DNA of 64,000 nt from the NCBI RefSeq assembly GCF_009807005.1, contig NZ_WUBR01000001.1:248001-312000 (forward strand), in the 5' to 3' direction. Origin of the DNA: Aurantiacibacter rhizosphaerae. GTDB lineage: Bacteria > Pseudomonadota > Alphaproteobacteria > Sphingomonadales > Sphingomonadaceae. This document shows, piece by piece, positions 6,291 through 15,327 of the stretch (within the stretch, counting starts at the first letter, position 1; every line of letters begins with the position of its first letter). A model generated the notes under the pieces. The model saw nothing but the letters and a program-made list of their open reading frames with translations. It was not told where the DNA came from and searched no databases. Made by a program: the position numbers and the translations under genes.

Positions 6291-8810
6291 ATGACAGCTG
6301 AACGATTCGATCCGTCGAGCGCCGACGGTCGCTGGCAAGCCGCGTGGGACGAAGCCAAGTGCTTCGAAGCCGACAGCGCCAGCGACAAGCCCAAGACCTA
6401 TGTGCTGGAGATGTTTCCCTATCCCAGCGGGCGCATCCACATCGGCCACGTGCGCAATTACACGATGGGCGATGTGCTGGCGCGCTATCACGCGATGCGC
6501 GGGCGCGAGGTGCTGCACCCCATGGGGTGGGACGCGTTCGGCATGCCGGCAGAGAATGCCGCCATGGAAAAGGGCGTGCATCCCGGCGGCTGGACCTACG
6601 ATAATATCGCCACGATGAAGGCCCAGCTGAAACAGCTGGGCTTTGCGCTCGACTGGTCCCGCGAATTCGCCACCTGCGATCCTGAATATTACGGCCACGA
6701 ACAGGCCCTGTTTATCGACCTGTTCGAGAACGGCCTGGTCTATCGCAAGGAGAGCGAGGTCAATTGGGACCCGGTCGATATGACCGTGCTGGCGAACGAG
6801 CAGGTGATCGACGGCAAGGGCTGGCGTTCGGGCGCGGAAGTTGAGAAGCGCAAGCTGAACCAGTGGTTCCTCAAGATCACCGATTTCGCCGAAGACCTGC
6901 TGGACGGCCTCGGCACGCTGGAGGATTGGCCTCAGAAGGTGCGGCTGATGCAGGAAAACTGGATCGGCAAGAGCCAAGGCCTGGAATTTTCCTTCGACCT
7001 TTCCAGCGGCGACAAGCTGCCCGTCTACACCACGCGGCCCGATACGATCTTCGGCGCCAGCTTCGTGGCCGTGGCTGCCGATCATCCGGTGGCACAGGCC
7101 GTGGCGGCGGATGATGCCACGGCGCAGGAATTCATCGCGCTGTGCAAGCGCGGCGGCACCACCGCGGCAGAGCTGGAGACGGCGGAAAAGCTGGGCTTCG
7201 ACACCGGCATCACCGCGCGCCACCCGTTCACCGGGGCACAGCTGCCGCTGTTCATCGCCAACTTCGTGCTGATGGATTACGGCACCGGCGCGATCATGGC
7301 CGTACCGGGGCATGACCAGCGCGACTTCGAATTTGCGACCAAGTATTCGCTGCCCATCCCTCGCGTGGTCGCGCCTAGCGTGGACGAGGCGGGCAAGCCT
7401 TTCGATGGAGAGGCCGAGGCGGGCGAGGGCGTTCTCGTCAATTCAGATTTTCTCGATGGCATGGACGTGGAAAGCGCCAAGGCCGAGGTAATCGCCCGCG
7501 CTGAAAAGGGCGGCTGGGGCAAGGGCACCACGGTATGGCGCCTGCGCGACTGGGGCGTTTCGCGCCAGCGTTACTGGGGCACGCCCATCCCCTTCATCCA
7601 TTGCGATGCTTGCGGCGTTGTGCCCGTGCCGAAGGATCAGTTGCCGGTAAAGCTGCCGGAGGATGTCTCTTTCGAACAGCCGGGCAATCCGTTGCTGCGC
7701 CATCCCACGTGGAAAGACACGACCTGCCCCAAGTGTGGCGGCAAGGCCGAGCGGGAAACCGACACGCTCGACACTTTCGTCAATTCCAGCTGGTATTTCC
7801 TGCGCTTCGCCAGCCAGCCGGCGGACAAGCCCTTCGACGCTGCCGAAGTCGCGCAATGGATGCCGGTAGATCAATATATCGGCGGTATCGAGCACGCGAT
7901 CCTGCACCTGCTTTACGCCCGCTTCTGGACGCGCGCTCTCGCCCATTGCGGCAAGCTGGATGTGAAGGAGCCCTTCGCCAGCCTGTTCACGCAAGGCATG
8001 GTGACGCACGAGACTTACAGCCGCAAGGACGGCCCGCGAGAGGTGTATTACACGCCTGCCGAGGTTGATCGCTCAAGCGAAGGCGCGGTGCTGAAGGACG
8101 ATGGCCAGCCGGTGCAGATCGGCAAGGTCATCAAGATGTCGAAGTCGAAGAAGAACGTCGTCGATCCCGAAGACATCATTCGCGATTACGGTGCCGATGC
8201 GGTGCGCTGGTTCATGCTGTCGGACTCTCCGCCGGAGCGGGACCTGCCGTGGTCCGAAGCCGGGATCGAAGGCTGCGGCCGTTTCGTGCAGCGCCTCTGG
8301 CGTCTGTTCGGACAATTCGACGATGGAGCGTCCGGCGAGGACAAGGATCTCGCTCGCAAGACGCACCAGACCATCGCCGCAATTGCCGAAGACATCGAGG
8401 CGTTGGCTTTCAACAAGGCGGTGGCGCGGATCTACGAACTCACCAGCGCGGCGGAAAAGGCCAAGCCATCGGCGGATCGCAACCACGCCATCCGCTCGCT
8501 GTTGCTGATGGCCTCCCCCATGATGCCGCATCTTGCCGAGGAAGGCTGGCACGCGATGGGCGGCACCGGACTTGTTGCCGAAGCAGATTGGCCCGAGGTC
8601 GACGAAAGACTGCTGGTAAATGACGAAGTCACTATTGCGGTGCAGCATAAGGGCAAGCTGCGCGATACGCTGACAGCGCCCGCCGATGCATCGAAGGATG
8701 ATCTGGAGGCGCTTGCACTTGCCAGCGAGAAGGTTCAGCGTTCGATCGATGGTGCAGAAATTCGCAAGGTGATCGTGGTGCCCGGCAGGCTGGTGAATAT
8801 CGTTACATGA
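6291..8810 (+). CDS. leuS: Leucyl-tRNA synthetase
   Basis: An 839-residue class I synthetase that charges tRNA-Leu. The HIGH motif is at residues 50-53 and KMSKS at 615-619 ([16 protein letters not shown]). The editing-domain motif [12 protein letters not shown] and the zinc-like CDACG and CPKCGG pairs are present. The length and order of domains are normal for bacteria. The stop overlaps the lptE start by 4 bases (ATGA), giving the common alphaproteobacterial leuS-lptE-holA operon. Confidence 0.98.
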
Positions 8811-9313
8811 TGCGCGTTGCCGCCCTTACCCTGGCCCTTGCGGTGCCTTCCCTGTCCCTCACCGGGTGCGGGCTGCAACCTATCTATGCAGGCGGCGGAA
8901 ACGGCTTTGTCGCGCGCGAACTGGCCGCCATCGACGTGCCGCCGATCCCCGGCCGCGAAGGCTGGCTGGTGCGCAATGCGCTGAATGATAGGCTGGGCCG
9001 CGGCGCAACAGGCAGCACCTCGCAATACCGCCTCGACATCGTGCTGGATGATGACCTGGAAGGCCTCGGCCTGCTGACCGATGATACCATCGGCCGCCAG
9101 CGCCGCATCCTGCGCGCGCGGTACCAATTGGTAGACGTTGCGACGGACACGATCCTTGTCGATGCCACCGCCGGCTCCGACGCGGGTATCGACGTTGTCG
9201 GCTCCGAATTCGCCACTATCGCGGCAGAGCAGACTGCGCTGGAAAACCTTGCACAGGAAGTGGCGAACCAGATCGTCACCCGCGTCACCCGCACCCTGCG
9301 CGAAACGCAGTGA
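8807..9313 (+). CDS. lptE: LPS assembly lipoprotein LptE
   Basis: A 168-residue lipoprotein; the lipobox LSLTGC gives Cys21 as the lipidated residue. The context (leuS upstream with a 4-base overlap, holA downstream) and the GCGLQPIY start of the mature protein are typical of LptE, which plugs the LptD barrel at the outer membrane and helps place LPS on the cell surface. The sequence is poorly conserved in general, so part of the call rests on position. The inner-membrane and periplasmic partners lptC and lptA are 4 kb downstream on the other strand. Confidence 0.9.
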
Positions 9314-9335: not shown

Positions 9336-10370
9336 GTGAAGGCGACCCAGCGCGACTATGCGCAGGCCGCGCAAAAGGCAGGCAAGGCCCTGCGCATTTG
9401 CTTCTTTTGCGGCGCTGACGAAGCCGGTGCCTCTGCCGCTGCGAAGAAGGTGATCGCTACGTTGGACGAACCCGGAGAACGGGTGGAGCTGTCCGGGCAG
9501 GACCTGAAATCGGACCCGTCCCGCCTCCTCGACGAAGCGCGCTCCACCTCGCTTTTCGGCGATTCCCGCCATATCTACGCCCGCGTTTCCGGGGAGGATG
9601 CGCATGAGGCGATCAAGACCTATTGCGAGCTGGCCGACCTCGGCGATGCCGCTGGCGCGTGGCCGATCTTCATCGTCGCCACCTCCGCCACGGACAAGTC
9701 GCGCAGCGCCAAGCTGCTGATCAAGCGCGCCGATGCACTGGTGGCGATCTTCTACCCGCCAGACCTCAGGTCCGTGACCGCAGATGTGCGCGCGATGGCC
9801 GATGCGGCAGGTATGCGTCTCAATGGCAATCTGGCGGAACGTATCGCCCATGCAGCGGGCCTGGACGTGCGCCTCGCACAGTCCGAGGTCGACAAGCTGG
9901 CGCTCTATCTCGATGCCTCTCCGCAATCGCCGAAGCAGGCGAACCCGGACGATTTCGACATGATCGGCGCGTCCACCGAGGAAGACGGCTTCATGCCGCT
10001 GGTAAATGCCGCGCTGGGCGGCGAGGTGCGCAAGCTTCCGGGCGAATTGCGCCGCATGCGTGAGGTTTCGCTCAATCCCGTTGCCGTGACCCTGGCGCTG
10101 GAGCGTCGCGCGGCACAGCTGGCGCGGCTTTCGGCCAATCTGCGTCCCGGTGACGACATGCAGCAATTCCTGAAATCGCAAGGCGTGTTCTTTCGCGAAC
10201 ATCGCGAGATCGGCGACCAGTTGCAGCGCTGGAGCGGCGGCAAGCTGGAGCGGCTGGTGCCAAGGCTGACGCAGCTGCATCGGTCCTTGCTGGCCAACAG
10301 CCAGACGGCAGAACTGATCCTGTCGCAGGAATTGGCGCAGATTGCCCGATACGCCGCGGCGCGTCGCTAA
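9336..10370 (+). CDS. holA: DNA polymerase III subunit delta
   Basis: A 344-residue delta subunit of the clamp loader. It opens the beta clamp during replication. The N-terminal region (ICFFCGADEAGASAAAKKVI, then VELSGQDLKSDPSRLLDEAR) and the SLFGDSRHIYARVSG segment fit HolA. I place the start at the GTG at 9336 (MKATQRDYAQ), which gives the normal length of about 340; the frame is open further upstream inside lptE without family resemblance. It is the last gene of the leuS operon. A 228-base repeat-rich gap follows. Confidence 0.93.
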   Translation: MKATQRDYAQAAQKAGKALRICFFCGADEAGASAAAKKVIATLDEPGERVELSGQDLKSDPSRLLDEARSTSLFGDSRHIYARVSGEDAHEAIKTYCELADLGDAAGAWPIFIVATSATDKSRSAKLLIKRADALVAIFYPPDLRSVTADVRAMADAAGMRLNGNLAERIAHAAGLDVRLAQSEVDKLALYLDASPQSPKQANPDDFDMIGASTEEDGFMPLVNAALGGEVRKLPGELRRMREVSLNPVAVTLALERRAAQLARLSANLRPGDDMQQFLKSQGVFFREHREIGDQLQRWSGGKLERLVPRLTQLHRSLLANSQTAELILSQELAQIARYAAARR

Positions 10371-10598: not shown

Positions 10599-11957
10599 GT
10601 GGATCTGAGCCGCGGTGATCCGAATGTGATTCATGCCGGTGATGCGGCAGAAGTCACGTTCGACACAGCAGATCTGCAGGCGACCCGCAGGCATCCGATT
10701 GCGCCGACAGACGGGCTGGTGGGTTCGCTGGAGCGCAAAAGACTACAAATCTATCTTTTCCTGATCCTGGCTGACACCGCCGTTCTTTTCGGCACATTCC
10801 TCGCAGCGACTGCCATCTATTACGGCAGCGCGATCGATATAAACTTGATTCAGGATGGGCTTTTGCCCGCCTTCCTCCTGTTGCCGGTCTATCTGACGGT
10901 CGCCTTGTACAACGGCACCTATTCGCAATCATGCCTTACCGACACGAACCGTTCCGTGGTCCGCATGATCGCAGCCATGCTGATAGCAGCGGCATTGGTG
11001 AACTTCCTCGCCTTTTTTGCCAAGATGAATGCCGAGTTTTCGCGCGTGATCTTTACGGCTGGCATGGTTGGCGCGACCACCGCGATGGCGCTGGTTCGCT
11101 TCGGCACCTCGGCCTGGATTACCAGGCTCTGGGGGCCAAAGCCTGTAAACCAGCTGGTGATCCATGCAGGCGGACCGCGATTCACGCTGCCTTTCGCCTA
11201 CCATATTGACGCGGAGACCCACGGTCTGAGCCCGGACATGAATGATCCGACCCAGCTGGATCGCTTTGCCAAATATCTCTGCAACATGGATGAGGTGATC
11301 ATCAGTTGCGAGGACAGCGCTCGGCTGATGTGGGCAGAGATGTTGAAGGGTTCGGGCCGCCACGGAGAAATCATCTCGGAATTCACAAGGGCGATCGGCG
11401 CGCTTGGGGTGGTCCACCACGATGATGCCAATGTCAGCGGACTGCTGGTGTCCACCGGCCGCCTGGGCATGCGCTCGCGCGTGTTGAAACGCCTGTTCGA
11501 TATCGCGTTGTCCTCTGTCGCATTGCTGGCGCTCAGCCCGGTGATGGCTGCCGTGGCCATTGCCATCAAGCTGCAGGATGGTGGTCCGATTTTCTTTCAT
11601 CAGCGGCGCGTGGGCAGAGGCAACCGGTTCTTCAATATCTACAAATTCCGTTCGATGAGCGAATCTGATGCCAGGGGTGACCGGTCGGCGTCTAAGGATG
11701 ACGATCGGATCACACCCATCGGTCGGTTCATCCGCCGTACCAGTATTGATGAGCTGCCCCAGCTCATCAATGTCGTAAAAGGCGACATGAGCCATCAACC
11801 CTGGATTACCCGCTGCGCAATCAGACGATCCTATGCGCAGGGGCCGTCTTCATCGTCCTGCTGGCCACCAACCGTAGGGCCGCGCAATGATCGCCCGCGT
11901 CACCATTGCGGGCCTGGCCCTGCTGATGGCGATCGTCGCCTGCTTTGCACAGCTTGA
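10599..11957 (+). CDS. Truncated exopolysaccharide sugar transferase (WcaJ/ExoY type)
   Basis: The frame encodes 452 residues, but only residues 1-398 look like a polyprenyl-phosphate glycosylphosphotransferase. Several membrane segments lie between about residues 50 and 165. The C-terminal bacterial sugar transferase domain starts near 293, with KFRSM at 349-353 and the catalytic Asp-Glu pair D384-E385 in SIDELPQ. The sequence breaks after GDMS (codon ends 11792). The VGPRP segment and the PGLTG-type end, normally about 65 further residues, are absent and replaced by unrelated translation (HQPWITRCAI and on). It is probably inactive as it stands. The start is GTG. Two counted 60-base lines gave 50% and 57% GC, below nearby genes. 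Confidence 0.8.
   Translation: MDLSRGDPNVIHAGDAAEVTFDTADLQATRRHPIAPTDGLVGSLERKRLQIYLFLILADTAVLFGTFLAATAIYYGSAIDINLIQDGLLPAFLLLPVYLTVALYNGTYSQSCLTDTNRSVVRMIAAMLIAAALVNFLAFFAKMNAEFSRVIFTAGMVGATTAMALVRFGTSAWITRLWGPKPVNQLVIHAGGPRFTLPFAYHIDAETHGLSPDMNDPTQLDRFAKYLCNMDEVIISCEDSARLMWAEMLKGSGRHGEIISEFTRAIGALGVVHHDDANVSGLLVSTGRLGMRSRVLKRLFDIALSSVALLALSPVMAAVAIAIKLQDGGPIFFHQRRVGRGNRFFNIYKFRSMSESDARGDRSASKDDDRITPIGRFIRRTSIDELPQLINVVKGDMSHQPWITRCAIRRSYAQGPSSSSCWPPTVGPRNDRPRHHCGPGPADGDRRLLCTA
11795..11890 (+). pseudogene. C-terminal remnant of an O-antigen ligase-like gene
   Basis: In a frame different from the sugar transferase, bases 11795-11890 read STLDYPLRNQTI, then a hydrophobic stretch (ILCAGAVFIVLLA) and a stop. 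The pattern of Asp-Tyr-Pro-Leu-Arg followed by a final membrane segment is the usual C-terminus of Wzy/WaaL-type ligases in sphingomonads. Nothing of the rest of the protein is present. Its TGA overlaps the next ATG by 4 bases (ATGA, 11887-11890), as expected if these two genes were once an intact coupled pair. Confidence 0.6.
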
Positions 11958-12600
11958 TCAGCAATCGCGCCTTGATCCTTCATATGCGCTGATGGTGCCC
12001 GATGCCTTCAGCGGGAATGCGGCCCGCGAACGCGCGAAGATGGAGTTGCAGCTTGGGCAAGGGCAGGCCGCCCTCGCCAGCGCGACCATGCAGATAAAGC
12101 ATCGCCCCTTACCCGCAGAGAGCCTTACGATTCTTGCCCTGTCCGCAATCAGCGCTGGTGAGGAAGAACCAGCGACCGATGCGCTATCGGCCGCCAGCCG
12201 CCGCGGATGGCGAGAGCCGATTGCGCAGTTGGCGAGTGCCGAATCTGCACTGAGCCAGGGCCAGTATCAGGGCGCCGCGCAAAGGATCGCCGCGCTGATG
12301 GCTATGGGAACGCTTTCCGCTCCGACGGAGGAGCTGCTGGGCCGTTTGTTGCAGACGCCAGAGGGACAGCAGGCATTTGCAGAGCGTCTGGCGGCGTTTG
12401 GCCGTTGGCAAAACAACGCGCTTCTCACCGGCTATCGTGCAGGCGGTGCCAGTGCATGGGCAAGCACGCTGGCGCGGGCCAATGAACTGGGCGCGGACTT
12501 CAATTGTAACCGCCTGGGTCTATTGGCCAAGAAATACGGCGGACATCAGAACGCGGCAGATCTGGCCAAATTCTGGCCGGGTGACTGCAAGAGCAGTTGA
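11887..12600 (+). CDS. Repeat-rich helical protein (TPR-like), exopolysaccharide locus
   Basis: 237 residues. An N-terminal hydrophobic stretch (TIAGLALLMAIVACFA) acts as signal or anchor. The rest is alanine-rich helices in tandem (ARERAKMELQLGQGQAALA, AESLTILALSAISAGEEEPA, AQLASAESALSQGQYQGAA), which suggests TPR-like repeats for protein contacts in the periplasm. I recognise no catalytic motif. Translation is probably coupled to the ligase remnant through the ATGA overlap. Similar proteins sit beside O-antigen ligase genes in sphingomonad polysaccharide clusters; this is from memory of the context, not a search. It is convergent with lptA. Confidence 0.65.
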   Translation: MIARVTIAGLALLMAIVACFAQLDQQSRLDPSYALMVPDAFSGNAARERAKMELQLGQGQAALASATMQIKHRPLPAESLTILALSAISAGEEEPATDALSAASRRGWREPIAQLASAESALSQGQYQGAAQRIAALMAMGTLSAPTEELLGRLLQTPEGQQAFAERLAAFGRWQNNALLTGYRAGGASAWASTLARANELGADFNCNRLGLLAKKYGGHQNAADLAKFWPGDCKSS

Positions 12601-12657: not shown

Positions 12658-13248
12658 TTAATTGCTATCCGGAACGGCGAAAGAACCGGAAACCCGGCCG
12701 CGTTGTCCGCTGGCGGTATTGCCCGCGCCGTCCACGCTGGAGAGGCCTGAATTGAGATCAATCACGAGGCGGCCGCCATCCAGAGTATCGCCGCCGCGAC
12801 GCAGGGCGACATTGCCGGAAAGCACGATCACGCGGCGGTTGAAATCATAGACTGCTGCATTCCCGCTGGCACGCTCATTCCCGCGTACAACGGTTACGCC
12901 GCCGGTCGCATCGATCCGCTGGATGCGCAGCGTGCCGGCGTCGGTATAGGCCACAGTCGTGCGGGCCGCAGTCAGTCGCAGATCGCCCTGCGTGATGACA
13001 ACATCGCCGGACAGCACGACGCGGTTCTGCCTGTCCTGCAGCTCGATCCGGTCCGCTGCATAGCTGACCGGCTGATTGGAATTGAAGCCTGCGATGGATT
13101 GCGCACCGGCCACGGAGCCGAAGGACAAGGCGGCAAGGCCGCCAGCCAGCAGGCCACCGGCCAGCCCGCGCAGGGCCAGTTTGCCAAGGCCGAAGCCGGA
13201 AGGCGCAGGGCGCGATCGCTCGGTGGAATTCATCACTCGCTCCATCAT
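12658..13248 (-). CDS. lptA: LPS transport periplasmic protein LptA
   Basis: A 196-residue OstA-fold protein that carries LPS across the periplasm between LptC and LptD. After an N-terminal hydrophobic segment (about residues 24-48) comes the OstA pattern: VSYAADRIELQDRQNRVVLS, GDVVITQGDLRLTA and VIVLSGNVALRRGGDTLDG. The start overlaps the lptC stop by 4 bases (ATGA). In most relatives lptB, the ATPase gene, follows lptA; here the next thing is the convergent exopolysaccharide gene, so lptB must be elsewhere. Confidence 0.92.
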   Translation of the reverse strand: MMERVMNSTERSRPAPSGFGLGKLALRGLAGGLLAGGLAALSFGSVAGAQSIAGFNSNQPVSYAADRIELQDRQNRVVLSGDVVITQGDLRLTAARTTVAYTDAGTLRIQRIDATGGVTVVRGNERASGNAAVYDFNRRVIVLSGNVALRRGGDTLDGGRLVIDLNSGLSSVDGAGNTASGQRGRVSGSFAVPDSN

Positions 13249-13901
13249 TGCATCTCAGCGGGCAGACGCAGGCGTCCCGGCACCATGCGCAGCCGGGCAT
13301 TGCCTACCAGGGAAAAGGTGCGGTTCTCCAGATCGGCACGCATGGAATTGGCGGAGAACGTGCCTGCCGGGATCTGGCCGTTCACCTGGCCTTGGCCCAG
13401 CAAGGTGCGCGAGGGCATGTCGATCGTCACGTTGCGGGCGACAAATTCATAGCCATCGGCAGCGGTGAACTGGACGATGCCGGGAATTGCCACCTGCTCG
13501 TCATCAATATCGTAAACGCCTCTGGGAGCGGTCAGCACGGCTGGCCCGCCCGACAGCACGATGCGCGCCGTCATGCCCTGCATCTCCACCTCCGGCACGG
13601 TGTTGCTCTGCTGCACGGCTTCGCCTGCCACCAGCGAGAAAGGTCGGCCTTCGCCGTCCTGCCCGCGATACATGGCGTTATCAACGCGCAAGCGGTCGTC
13701 AGCGATGGCAACCTTATTGCGGTCCAGCAGGAAGCTGATTTCTCCGCGCGGGGAAAGCGGGGTGATCAGCATCATCGCCGCGATCACGCCTACAAGTGCG
13801 GGCAGGCCAACCGCCAGCAGGCGCACGATCCGGTCGAGCGAACTGCCCGGAGCGGCGAATGCCTGGCGCCTGTTGCGCATCCTGTCGGCGGCTTTGGTCA
13901 T
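13245..13901 (-). CDS. lptC: LPS export protein LptC
   Basis: 218 residues. A basic N-terminus is followed by one membrane segment (about residues 26-48, VRLLAVGLPALVGVIAAMML) and a periplasmic beta-rich domain (RGEISFLLDRNKV at its start, MYRGQDGEGRPFSLVAGEA). It anchors LptA to the inner-membrane LptBFG complex. It overlaps lptA by 4 bases and lies 22 bases after rnd, so rnd-lptC-lptA are probably one operon, the usual order in sphingomonads. Confidence 0.92.
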   Translation of the reverse strand: MTKAADRMRNRRQAFAAPGSSLDRIVRLLAVGLPALVGVIAAMMLITPLSPRGEISFLLDRNKVAIADDRLRVDNAMYRGQDGEGRPFSLVAGEAVQQSNTVPEVEMQGMTARIVLSGGPAVLTAPRGVYDIDDEQVAIPGIVQFTAADGYEFVARNVTIDMPSRTLLGQGQVNGQIPAGTFSANSMRADLENRTFSLVGNARLRMVPGRLRLPAEMQ

Positions 13902-13923: not shown

Positions 13924-14544
13924 TCATGACTCGTGGCTGAAAATATCCTTGTCTGCCCATCCGGCAATATCCAGCCGTGCACGGGCGGGCAGGAATTCGT
14001 AACACGCCTCTGCCAGCTCCAGCCGGTCCTCCCGCTTCAATCGCTCGATCAGGATCTCGCGAAGGCGGTGCAGGTATCGCACATCGGATGCGGCATATTC
14101 GCGCTGCGCATCGTTCAGTGTGGGCGCGCCCCAGTCGCTCGATTGCTGCTGCTTTGACATGCTTTCGCCCAGCAATTCTTCCGTCAGGTTCTTCAGGCCG
14201 TGGCGATCGGTGTAGGTGCGCGTCATTTTGCTGGCGATCTTGGTGCAAAACACCGGCGCTGCCACCACGCCGAGGTAATGTTCGATGGCGGCCAGATCGA
14301 ACCGGGCGAAGTGATAGATCTTCACCCGCGCCGGATCGGCCAGAACTGCCTTCAGATTGGGCGCATCGTAATTGCTGCCCTTGGCGAAGCGCACCAGATG
14401 CTCGTCCCCCTGACCATCGCTGATCTGCACCACGCACAGCCTGTCACGCGGGGTTACAAGGCCCATGGTTTCGGTATCGACGGCCACGGGGCCATCGGCG
14501 AGCACGCCTGCGGGCAGGTCTTCTTCATGAAAATGTACAGTCAT
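13924..14544 (-). CDS. rnd: Ribonuclease D-type 3'-5' exonuclease
   Basis: A 206-residue DEDD-type exonuclease. The first metal motif is DTET at residues 23-26, and YHFARFDLAAIEHYLG and YAASDVRYLHRLREIL supply the later Asp and Tyr-x3-Asp motifs. It is the short form, with the exonuclease domain only and no C-terminal HRDC domains, as is normal in alphaproteobacteria. It trims the 3' ends of tRNA and other stable RNA. I chose the ATG at 14544 (MTVHFHEEDLP). It is divergent from ung with 99 bases between the starts. Confidence 0.9.
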   Translation of the reverse strand: MTVHFHEEDLPAGVLADGPVAVDTETMGLVTPRDRLCVVQISDGQGDEHLVRFAKGSNYDAPNLKAVLADPARVKIYHFARFDLAAIEHYLGVVAAPVFCTKIASKMTRTYTDRHGLKNLTEELLGESMSKQQQSSDWGAPTLNDAQREYAASDVRYLHRLREILIERLKREDRLELAEACYEFLPARARLDIAGWADKDIFSHES

Positions 14545-14643
14545 CGCCTGTCGCCTTAGGCGGATTGGGGATGGGAGGGAAGGGCTCACTGGAACTGCAT
14601 CCGGCAAGCCCGTATCGCCGGGCGAAAGGATGGCGAGCGACGC

Positions 14644-15327
14644 ATGACAGATTCGATACCCGATGCATGGGCACCCGTGCTTGCCCCGGTGCTGGACACA
14701 CCGCAATCACGCCAGCTGGGCGGCTGGCTTCGGGCAGAGGAGGATGCGGGCAAGGTGATCTTCCCCCCGCGCGGCAGCCGCCTTCGCGCGCTGGAGCTAA
14801 CCCCGCCGGACGATGTGCGCGTGGTGATCCTGGGGCAGGATCCCTATCACGGGCCGGGGCAGGCGCATGGTTTAAGCTTTTCGGTGCCTGCAGACGTTCC
14901 GCCGCCGCCTTCGCTGAAGAACATCTTCAAGGAGATGGAGAGCGATCTTGGCCTCACCCCGCCTGCTGCCGGCAATCTGGAAAGCTGGGCGCGGCAGGGT
15001 GCGCTGCTGCTGAACAACACGCTAACGGTGGAGCAGGGGCAGGCGGGTAGCCATGCGGGCAAGGGGTGGGAGGCCATTACCGATGCCTGCGTCGCCGCCA
15101 TTGCCGCGCGGGCGGAGCCGACGGTGTTCATTCTGTGGGGCAGCCATGCGCAGGGCAAGGCCGCGCGCATTCCCGAATTGCGGGAGGCGGACCGGCACCT
15201 GTTGCTGAAAAGCCCGCATCCCAGCCCGCTTTCGGCCTATCGCGGGTTCTTCGGGTCCAGACCCTTCTCGCAGGCCAATGCATTCCTTGAAAAGAGCGGG
15301 CGCGGCACGATCGACTGGCGATTGTGA
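14644..15327 (+). CDS. ung: Uracil-DNA glycosylase (family 1)
   Basis: A 227-residue family 1 enzyme that removes uracil from DNA to start base excision repair. The water-activating motif GQDPYHG is at residues 64-70 with D66, and the second motif HPSPLSAYRGFFG is near the C-terminus. The length is normal. It is divergent from rnd and followed after 41 bases by the DksA-type gene. No domain is missing. Confidence 0.97.
   Translation: MTDSIPDAWAPVLAPVLDTPQSRQLGGWLRAEEDAGKVIFPPRGSRLRALELTPPDDVRVVILGQDPYHGPGQAHGLSFSVPADVPPPPSLKNIFKEMESDLGLTPPAAGNLESWARQGALLLNNTLTVEQGQAGSHAGKGWEAITDACVAAIAARAEPTVFILWGSHAQGKAARIPELREADRHLLLKSPHPSPLSAYRGFFGSRPFSQANAFLEKSGRGTIDWRL

Follow-up and report, generated by a model that had tools for sequence, protein, structure and literature searches.

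A deletion scar in a surface-polysaccharide locus of Aurantiacibacter rhizosphaerae, with the same join in related genomes

In Aurantiacibacter rhizosphaerae, a stretch of 64,000 nucleotides (positions 248,001 to 312,000 of contig NZ_WUBR01000001.1; hereafter the window) holds a sugar transferase (ST) gene that breaks off within its catalytic domain and runs, in another frame, into the last codons of an O-antigen-ligase-type gene, which overlaps a 237-aa gene, designated T. Is this arrangement a real deletion, and is it an accident of one strain? Two main findings were obtained by comparing the locus across 40 genomes of the genus-level group. First, the locus is a deletion scar: nearly all of a Wzx/Wzy-type polysaccharide cluster has been removed at the holA-lptA site, leaving the first 398-399 codons of the ST, the last 31 codons of the ligase, and gene T. 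Second, the same join, identical to the base pair, is carried by four of the 40 genomes, and a fifth genome has a join 2 nt away.

The break can be read directly. The ST frame, from 10599 through DELPQLINVVKGDMS, reaches the motif GDMS at 11792, and the sequence there is AAA GGC GAC ATG AGC (AGC, 11790-11792) C, followed across the join by ATCAACCCTGGATTACCC. Past GDMS the ST frame continues out of frame to 11957, and positions 11795-11890 in the ligase frame encode STLDYPLRNQTILCAGAVFIVLLATNRRAAQ and a stop, the TGA of which (11888-11890) overlaps the ATG of T at 11887 as ATGA. The break after GDMS, the ligase ending in another frame (placed in the first-pass annotation from about 11795, and ligase-derived from 11794) and the ATGA overlap therefore hold as first described. 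The retained 398 residues match the family of large monotopic phosphoglycosyl transferases (WcaJ/WbaP/EPS_sugtrans), in which membrane segments occupy the N-terminal part; a PF13727 match in this part reached 19.8 bits against a cut-off of 25. Unlike other members, the window ST stops within the catalytic domain. The Pfam family Bac_transf is matched (E 1.9e-40) over model positions 1-103 of 179, so that the domain is incomplete: its first half, from DELPQ to GDMS, is retained, and VGPRP and the remainder are gone. Against NCBIfam TIGR03025 (EPS_sugtrans) the window ST scored 207 bits, under the cut-off of 295.6, whereas the intact ST of the closest unbroken relative, G030 (leuS 96% identical; ST 74% identical over residues 1-398), passed with 318.6. 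Since the intact G030 ST has 490 aa, about 92 residues are missing, rather than the 65 or so estimated at first. The ligase tail matches the C-terminal end of the G030 member of the Wzy_C O-antigen ligase/polymerase family (PF04932, matched by the G030 protein at 1.6e-16), with E 3.3e-4 and 68% over query residues 477-501. Unlike members of that family, however, the remnant has only 31 codons and no start codon (no ATG, GTG or TTG between the last stop and DYPLR, read by eye); Pfam returned no family for these 31 residues, which are too few, and the Wzy_C domain is not present in them. The DYPLR motif, which is shared with unbroken relatives, lies 83-116 nt before the T match in 22 rows that have an unbroken ligase end; of the 25 rows listed, the other three are scars.

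The unbroken relatives show what was removed. In 17 of the 40 genomes, ST and T share a contig and strand and are separated by 22.1-39.0 kb. In G030, leuS-lptE-holA-ST is followed by some 28 kb made up mainly of polysaccharide genes, and this in turn by ligase-T. The genes after ST are, in order, what we take, from their translations, to be sugar-nucleotide genes, a Wzz/tyrosine-kinase protein, glycosyltransferases, a sulfotransferase, a flippase-type protein, more presumed sugar-nucleotide genes and, last, the Wzy_C protein (the Pfam search covered 10 of the 21 open reading frames of at least 200 aa listed between ST and T). The Wzy_C protein ends in ALQSLLDYPLRNQTLLC..., and its stop overlaps T by ATGA. 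Because ST and T stand this far apart in 17 relatives, with a polysaccharide cluster between them in G030, the deletion is real. The early proposal that a deletion had fused two polysaccharide-cluster genes is borne out. The lost DNA would amount to about 28 kb if the original cluster resembled that of G030, and it spans 22-39 kb in the 17 relatives. Relocation of the lost parts, or their presence on other contigs, was rejected: when G000 (the window genome), G006 and G016 were searched with the G030 ligase and the C-terminal part of the ST, only distant homologues (at most 43% identity) appeared beyond the tails, G006 being 74% complete.

Loss of this polymer in the window strain is likely. 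Without the VGPRP segment and some 92 residues, the truncated ST is probably inactive and the pathway would stop at its first step; judged from the sequence, loss of its phosphoglycosyl transferase activity is expected. An Asp-Glu dyad is described as catalytic in large monotopic phosphoglycosyl transferases (PMC10942596), and the window ST retains the DE of DELPQ. Other surface sugars may remain, because the window genome keeps further ST matches, in frames of 462, 433 (C1:744748) and 266 codons, and a distant ligase homologue (29%, C1:740066). The roughly 94 nt kept before T may serve its expression.

The five scar carriers are G000, G006 (a metagenome-derived Erythrobacter, HKST-UBA124), G011 (Aurantiacibacter zhengii V18), G013 (an uncultured Sphingomonadaceae isolate, 937-G) and G016 (Altererythrobacter sp. 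KTW20L). In G000, G011, G013 and G006 the join falls 2 nt after the GDMS serine codon and is followed by TCN-NNN-NTN-GAY-TAY-CCN; in G016 the distance is 4 nt. Set against unbroken relatives, the first base of ST codon 399 is joined to the third base of a ligase Gln codon. G013 and G006 have a T immediately before the join, at a position that is mostly C or A in relatives, and for these two genomes it was assumed that this T is the last ST base. Across these five genomes, the ST proteins differ by about 14-46%. As a separate observation, the truncated ST of G016 (C23) reads in frame across the scar into T, giving an open frame of 686 codons. An artefact of assembly or binning, raised in the first-pass annotation as an assembly join, could be suspected from the 3% contamination of G011, with lptC on four contigs, and from the 430 contigs of G006. 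However, the window genome consists of 6 contigs with a completeness of 100 and a contamination of 0.26, its missing parts are not stranded elsewhere in it or in G016, and the join recurs in four other assemblies, exact to the nucleotide in three of them and shifted by 2 nt in the fourth; an artefact is thus extremely improbable. Both misassembly and a strain-specific accident are unlikely, because four other genomes carry the join, the five truncated STs fall in four places on the ST tree, and the two ends lack homology in register (see below). Relatives do exist that have an equally short ST and lack the ligase, a situation named beforehand as a reason to doubt the first interpretation; they speak against a one-off event confined to this strain, and the deletion origin stands, since intact relatives show it.

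The remaining genomes of the group show several other states. In G011 and G013, the full cluster is also present on another contig. Two genomes (G010, G035) have ST and T on one contig, either widely separated or on opposite strands, and in three (G009, G024, G034) the two genes are on different contigs; T or a fragment of it was seen in two, with the ST not found (G004) or not searched (G063); and T is absent from nine. Two single genomes show other short forms: in G031 (C10), ST and T are only 7 kb apart, with the ST frameshifted within about 10 codons after GDMS and an internal TAG in T, and in G007 (C3), which is further decayed, ST residue ~131 is joined to T residue ~102 between holA and lptA. 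Empty sites, with holA and lptA as direct neighbours and no cluster, were seen on 10 contigs (L130, L139, L147, L163, L165, L188, L197, L199, L204, L207). In G011, a stretch of 1117 bp covering lptA-lptC is 100% identical on four contigs (C17, C4, C13, C28); its left context is either the scar or the full cluster, its right context either rnd or sugar-nucleotide genes that follow a partial rnd. This is probably a duplicated locus that carries the scar and a second cluster. Among 397 genomes of the family, 185 had an ST match at 1e-40 and 81 a T match at 1e-8. Outside the genus-level group, no scar-type ST-T pair was seen by eye among the matches listed, a search that scars without T would escape; same-strand pairs there are about 5 kb or more apart, and in G172 the two genes are 400 nt apart on opposite strands. 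The C-terminal part of the ST is present at 20 of 21 further ST loci (20 of the 21 from other genera), the remaining one ending at a contig end.

Why, then, should the same two positions be joined in different lineages? For two deletions with their ends inside the ST (1.47 kb, 490 codons) and the ligase (1.52 kb, 507 codons), chance agreement is about 4.5e-7, or 1 in two million. Comparison of the parental sites in 16 unbroken genomes gave 8-13 identities in 40 in the register of the join, which ranked 9 to 48 among 61 registers, and a direct repeat or microhomology at both ends was not found; these comparisons used unbroken relatives rather than the actual parents of the scars. No consistent hairpin was predicted at the ends in the two genomes folded (z -0.1 and -2.2 in G030; -0.2 and 0.7 in G014). 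In G030 the ligase-side breakpoint lies between two predicted DNA hairpins (L058:13437-13497, z -2.2), which G014 does not have.

Herein, we propose, tentatively and as a quite possible history, that one scar has spread as a null allele by homologous recombination between lineages. Having arisen once by deletion, the scar would act as a null allele at a polysaccharide locus that varies greatly, and would then pass between lineages. Recombination would use two arms, the conserved 3' region of the ST fragment on one side and either the ligase tail or T on the other, so that each carrier would keep mostly local flanking sequence and an identical join. The proposal rests on the exact agreement of the join in the absence of homology, together with two local signals. 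The first comes from a permutation test for mosaics (16 triples tried; p floor 0.0005). In G000, the final ~121 nt of ST sequence ahead of the join resemble the scarred G011 rather than its nearest relative, G030 (20:6, vs 89:172 upstream; p 0.002), and with G014, G019, G013 or G006 as second parent the result was not significant (p 0.14-0.56). Over its final 378-411 nt, G011 diverges from G013, its sister, and approaches G000 (p 0.0005, the floor of the test). The second signal is an Ile in DYPLRN.T-I-L, present in four of the five scar tails vs one of 22 other rows (p 0.0014, the position having been chosen after the data were seen); 21 of the 22 have Leu, Met or Val, and the exception is the full cluster of G011. 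A recombining null allele would explain the local signals of G000, G011 and G013, and such a history is not shown for G006 or G016.

A considerable body of results weighs against the spread of one scar, and much of it agrees with independent deletions in four or more lineages, each between the same two positions and brought about by a site-preferring mechanism such as a nuclease or recombinase; the proposed targets are conserved DNA in both genes, encoding GDMS/VGPRP in the ST and QSLLDYPLR in the ligase. On the ST tree (26 rows), the scar state needs four changes: G000 is the sister of unbroken G030, G011 and G013 are next to G014, G006 is the sister of G001, and G016 is separate. Holding the scars together was rejected in four of four groupings, named after the tree was seen (p-AU 7.7e-14 to 1.5e-71). 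On the T tree five changes are needed, and the four same-join scars as one clade were rejected (p-AU 1.4e-9); a G000+G006 grouping was not (p-AU 0.11). Because both trees are polyphyletic for the scar, spread needs repeated recombination close to the join. The ST of G006 sides with G001 and its T does not (G006+G001 on T: p-AU 1.6e-31); therefore the two halves of this locus have different histories. The scar of G006 also lies elsewhere in the genome, flanked by what are presumably a P450-like gene and a region resembling a dehydrogenase, and the holA-lptA site of this genome is empty; among the carriers, G006 is the one placed with least certainty, being an incomplete bin. Among carriers, the tails differ at codon positions 1/2/3 as 49/22/135, and the third-position share is 65.5% vs 57.2% in intact ligases; the tails still resemble freshly cut coding sequence, a pattern that separate deletions of recent date would fit better than a single old relic that no longer codes. 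The G013 tail is 97% identical to an intact ligase end, and from the join onward it matches the end of the intact ligase on C4 of G011. Taken together, the tree polyphyly, the codon pattern of the tails and the split history of G006 point to repeated origin. The mosaic results are also mixed. The departure of G011 is equally towards unbroken G014 (p 0.0005), and no mosaic appeared with G006 or G013 as query (four triples, p 0.14-0.73). Apart from the results for G000 and G011, two triples came out below 0.05. In one, G016/G034/G006, the similarity of G016 to the scarred G006 is lost as the join is approached (p 0.008). Because the other, the unbroken G014/G011/G019 triple, gave p 0.046, recombination at the locus is not special to scars. 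As for carriers, the gene-transfer-agent marker PF13547 was absent from eight of eight genomes, with a positive control in Caulobacter, and such a carrier is not claimed. Plasmid carriage was rejected (936 plasmid records match the ST, all below 60% identity, and T gave one weak match), as was recent spread of one copy with its flanks, since the carriers' tails differ from one another at about 20 of 63 nt and the scar is polyphyletic on both trees.

Independent deletion, however, meets the difficulties described above: the ends lack homology in register and a consistent hairpin, and no recombinase was found among the 10 scanned G030 open reading frames. With such a low chance agreement it needs a dedicated mechanism, and we know of none that gives deletions with fixed ends. 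We regard repeated deletion as possible but rather doubtful, and its strong form, an undescribed site-specific process that repeatedly deletes the cluster between fixed points in the transferase and ligase genes in at least four lineages without end homology, as unlikely. We lean somewhat to spread over recurrence.

A further explanation is that the scarred locus is a functional module, made up of the truncated ST and T and kept by selection, which might, for instance, serve another large phosphoglycosyl transferase as its regulatory partner; the truncated ST would be a membrane bundle with a PF13727-like domain and half a catalytic domain. All five truncated STs are open over 369-399 matched codons, T is open over the matched stretch in all five carriers, and the STs of G011 and G013 show a strong third-position bias (0.102/0.059/0.377). 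In Salmonella WbaP, most of the dimer contacts are reported to lie in the PF13727 domain, which has also been implicated in the binding of uridine nucleotides (PMC10942596). However, equal constraint is expected from recent deletions, the out-of-frame extensions past GDMS vary in length and sequence, and the ligase frame of the window lacks a start codon, so that a selected module is quite improbable.

The features of the window are collected in Table 1. The names leuS, lptE and holA are those we take from reading the translations, with no family match behind them.

Table 1. Features at and around the scar (window positions)
Feature	Position	Strand	Remarks
Truncated ST, large monotopic phosphoglycosyl transferase type	10599..11793	+	GTG at 10599 is the listed start; real start possibly further in
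Scar	11793..11794		last ST-derived base 11793, first ligase-derived base 11794
3'-end remnant of Wzy_C/O-antigen-ligase-type gene	11794..11890	+	last 31 codons and stop, out of frame with ST
Gene T	11887..12600	+	237 aa, hydrophobic N-terminus, open; TPR-family match weak, below cut-off
holA, left flank of cluster site	9336..10370	+	with leuS 6291-8810 and lptE 8807-9313; conserved block seen in relatives
lptA, right flank of cluster site	12658..13248	-	Pfam match
lptC; rnd-like exonuclease	13245-13901; 13924-14706		right flank beyond lptA; Pfam matches

Bacteria commonly lose surface-polysaccharide clusters, and the breakpoints of such losses are expected to be arbitrary. The literature listings searched gave no account of the present scar, and what is new here is the recurrence of one exact scar across genomes. 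The capsule null locus (cnl) of Neisseria meningitidis is, as described in two accounts, a comparable case: a natural allele without polysaccharide genes where relatives carry an island of about 24 kb, exchanged by horizontal transfer (PMC5349592, PMC6619384). Unlike cnl, the null allele described here keeps stumps of the ST and the ligase and is common to several species; because these stumps are kept, it is derived by deletion. One breakpoint in four genomes, with another 2 nt off, needs either a travelling null allele or a deletion mechanism with fixed ends. The latter, if true, would be a new rearrangement system, and deletion between fixed points would amount to a built-in or parasite-driven "off switch" for the coat. 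A travelling null allele, if true, would bear on how bacteria switch off their coats and phage receptors.
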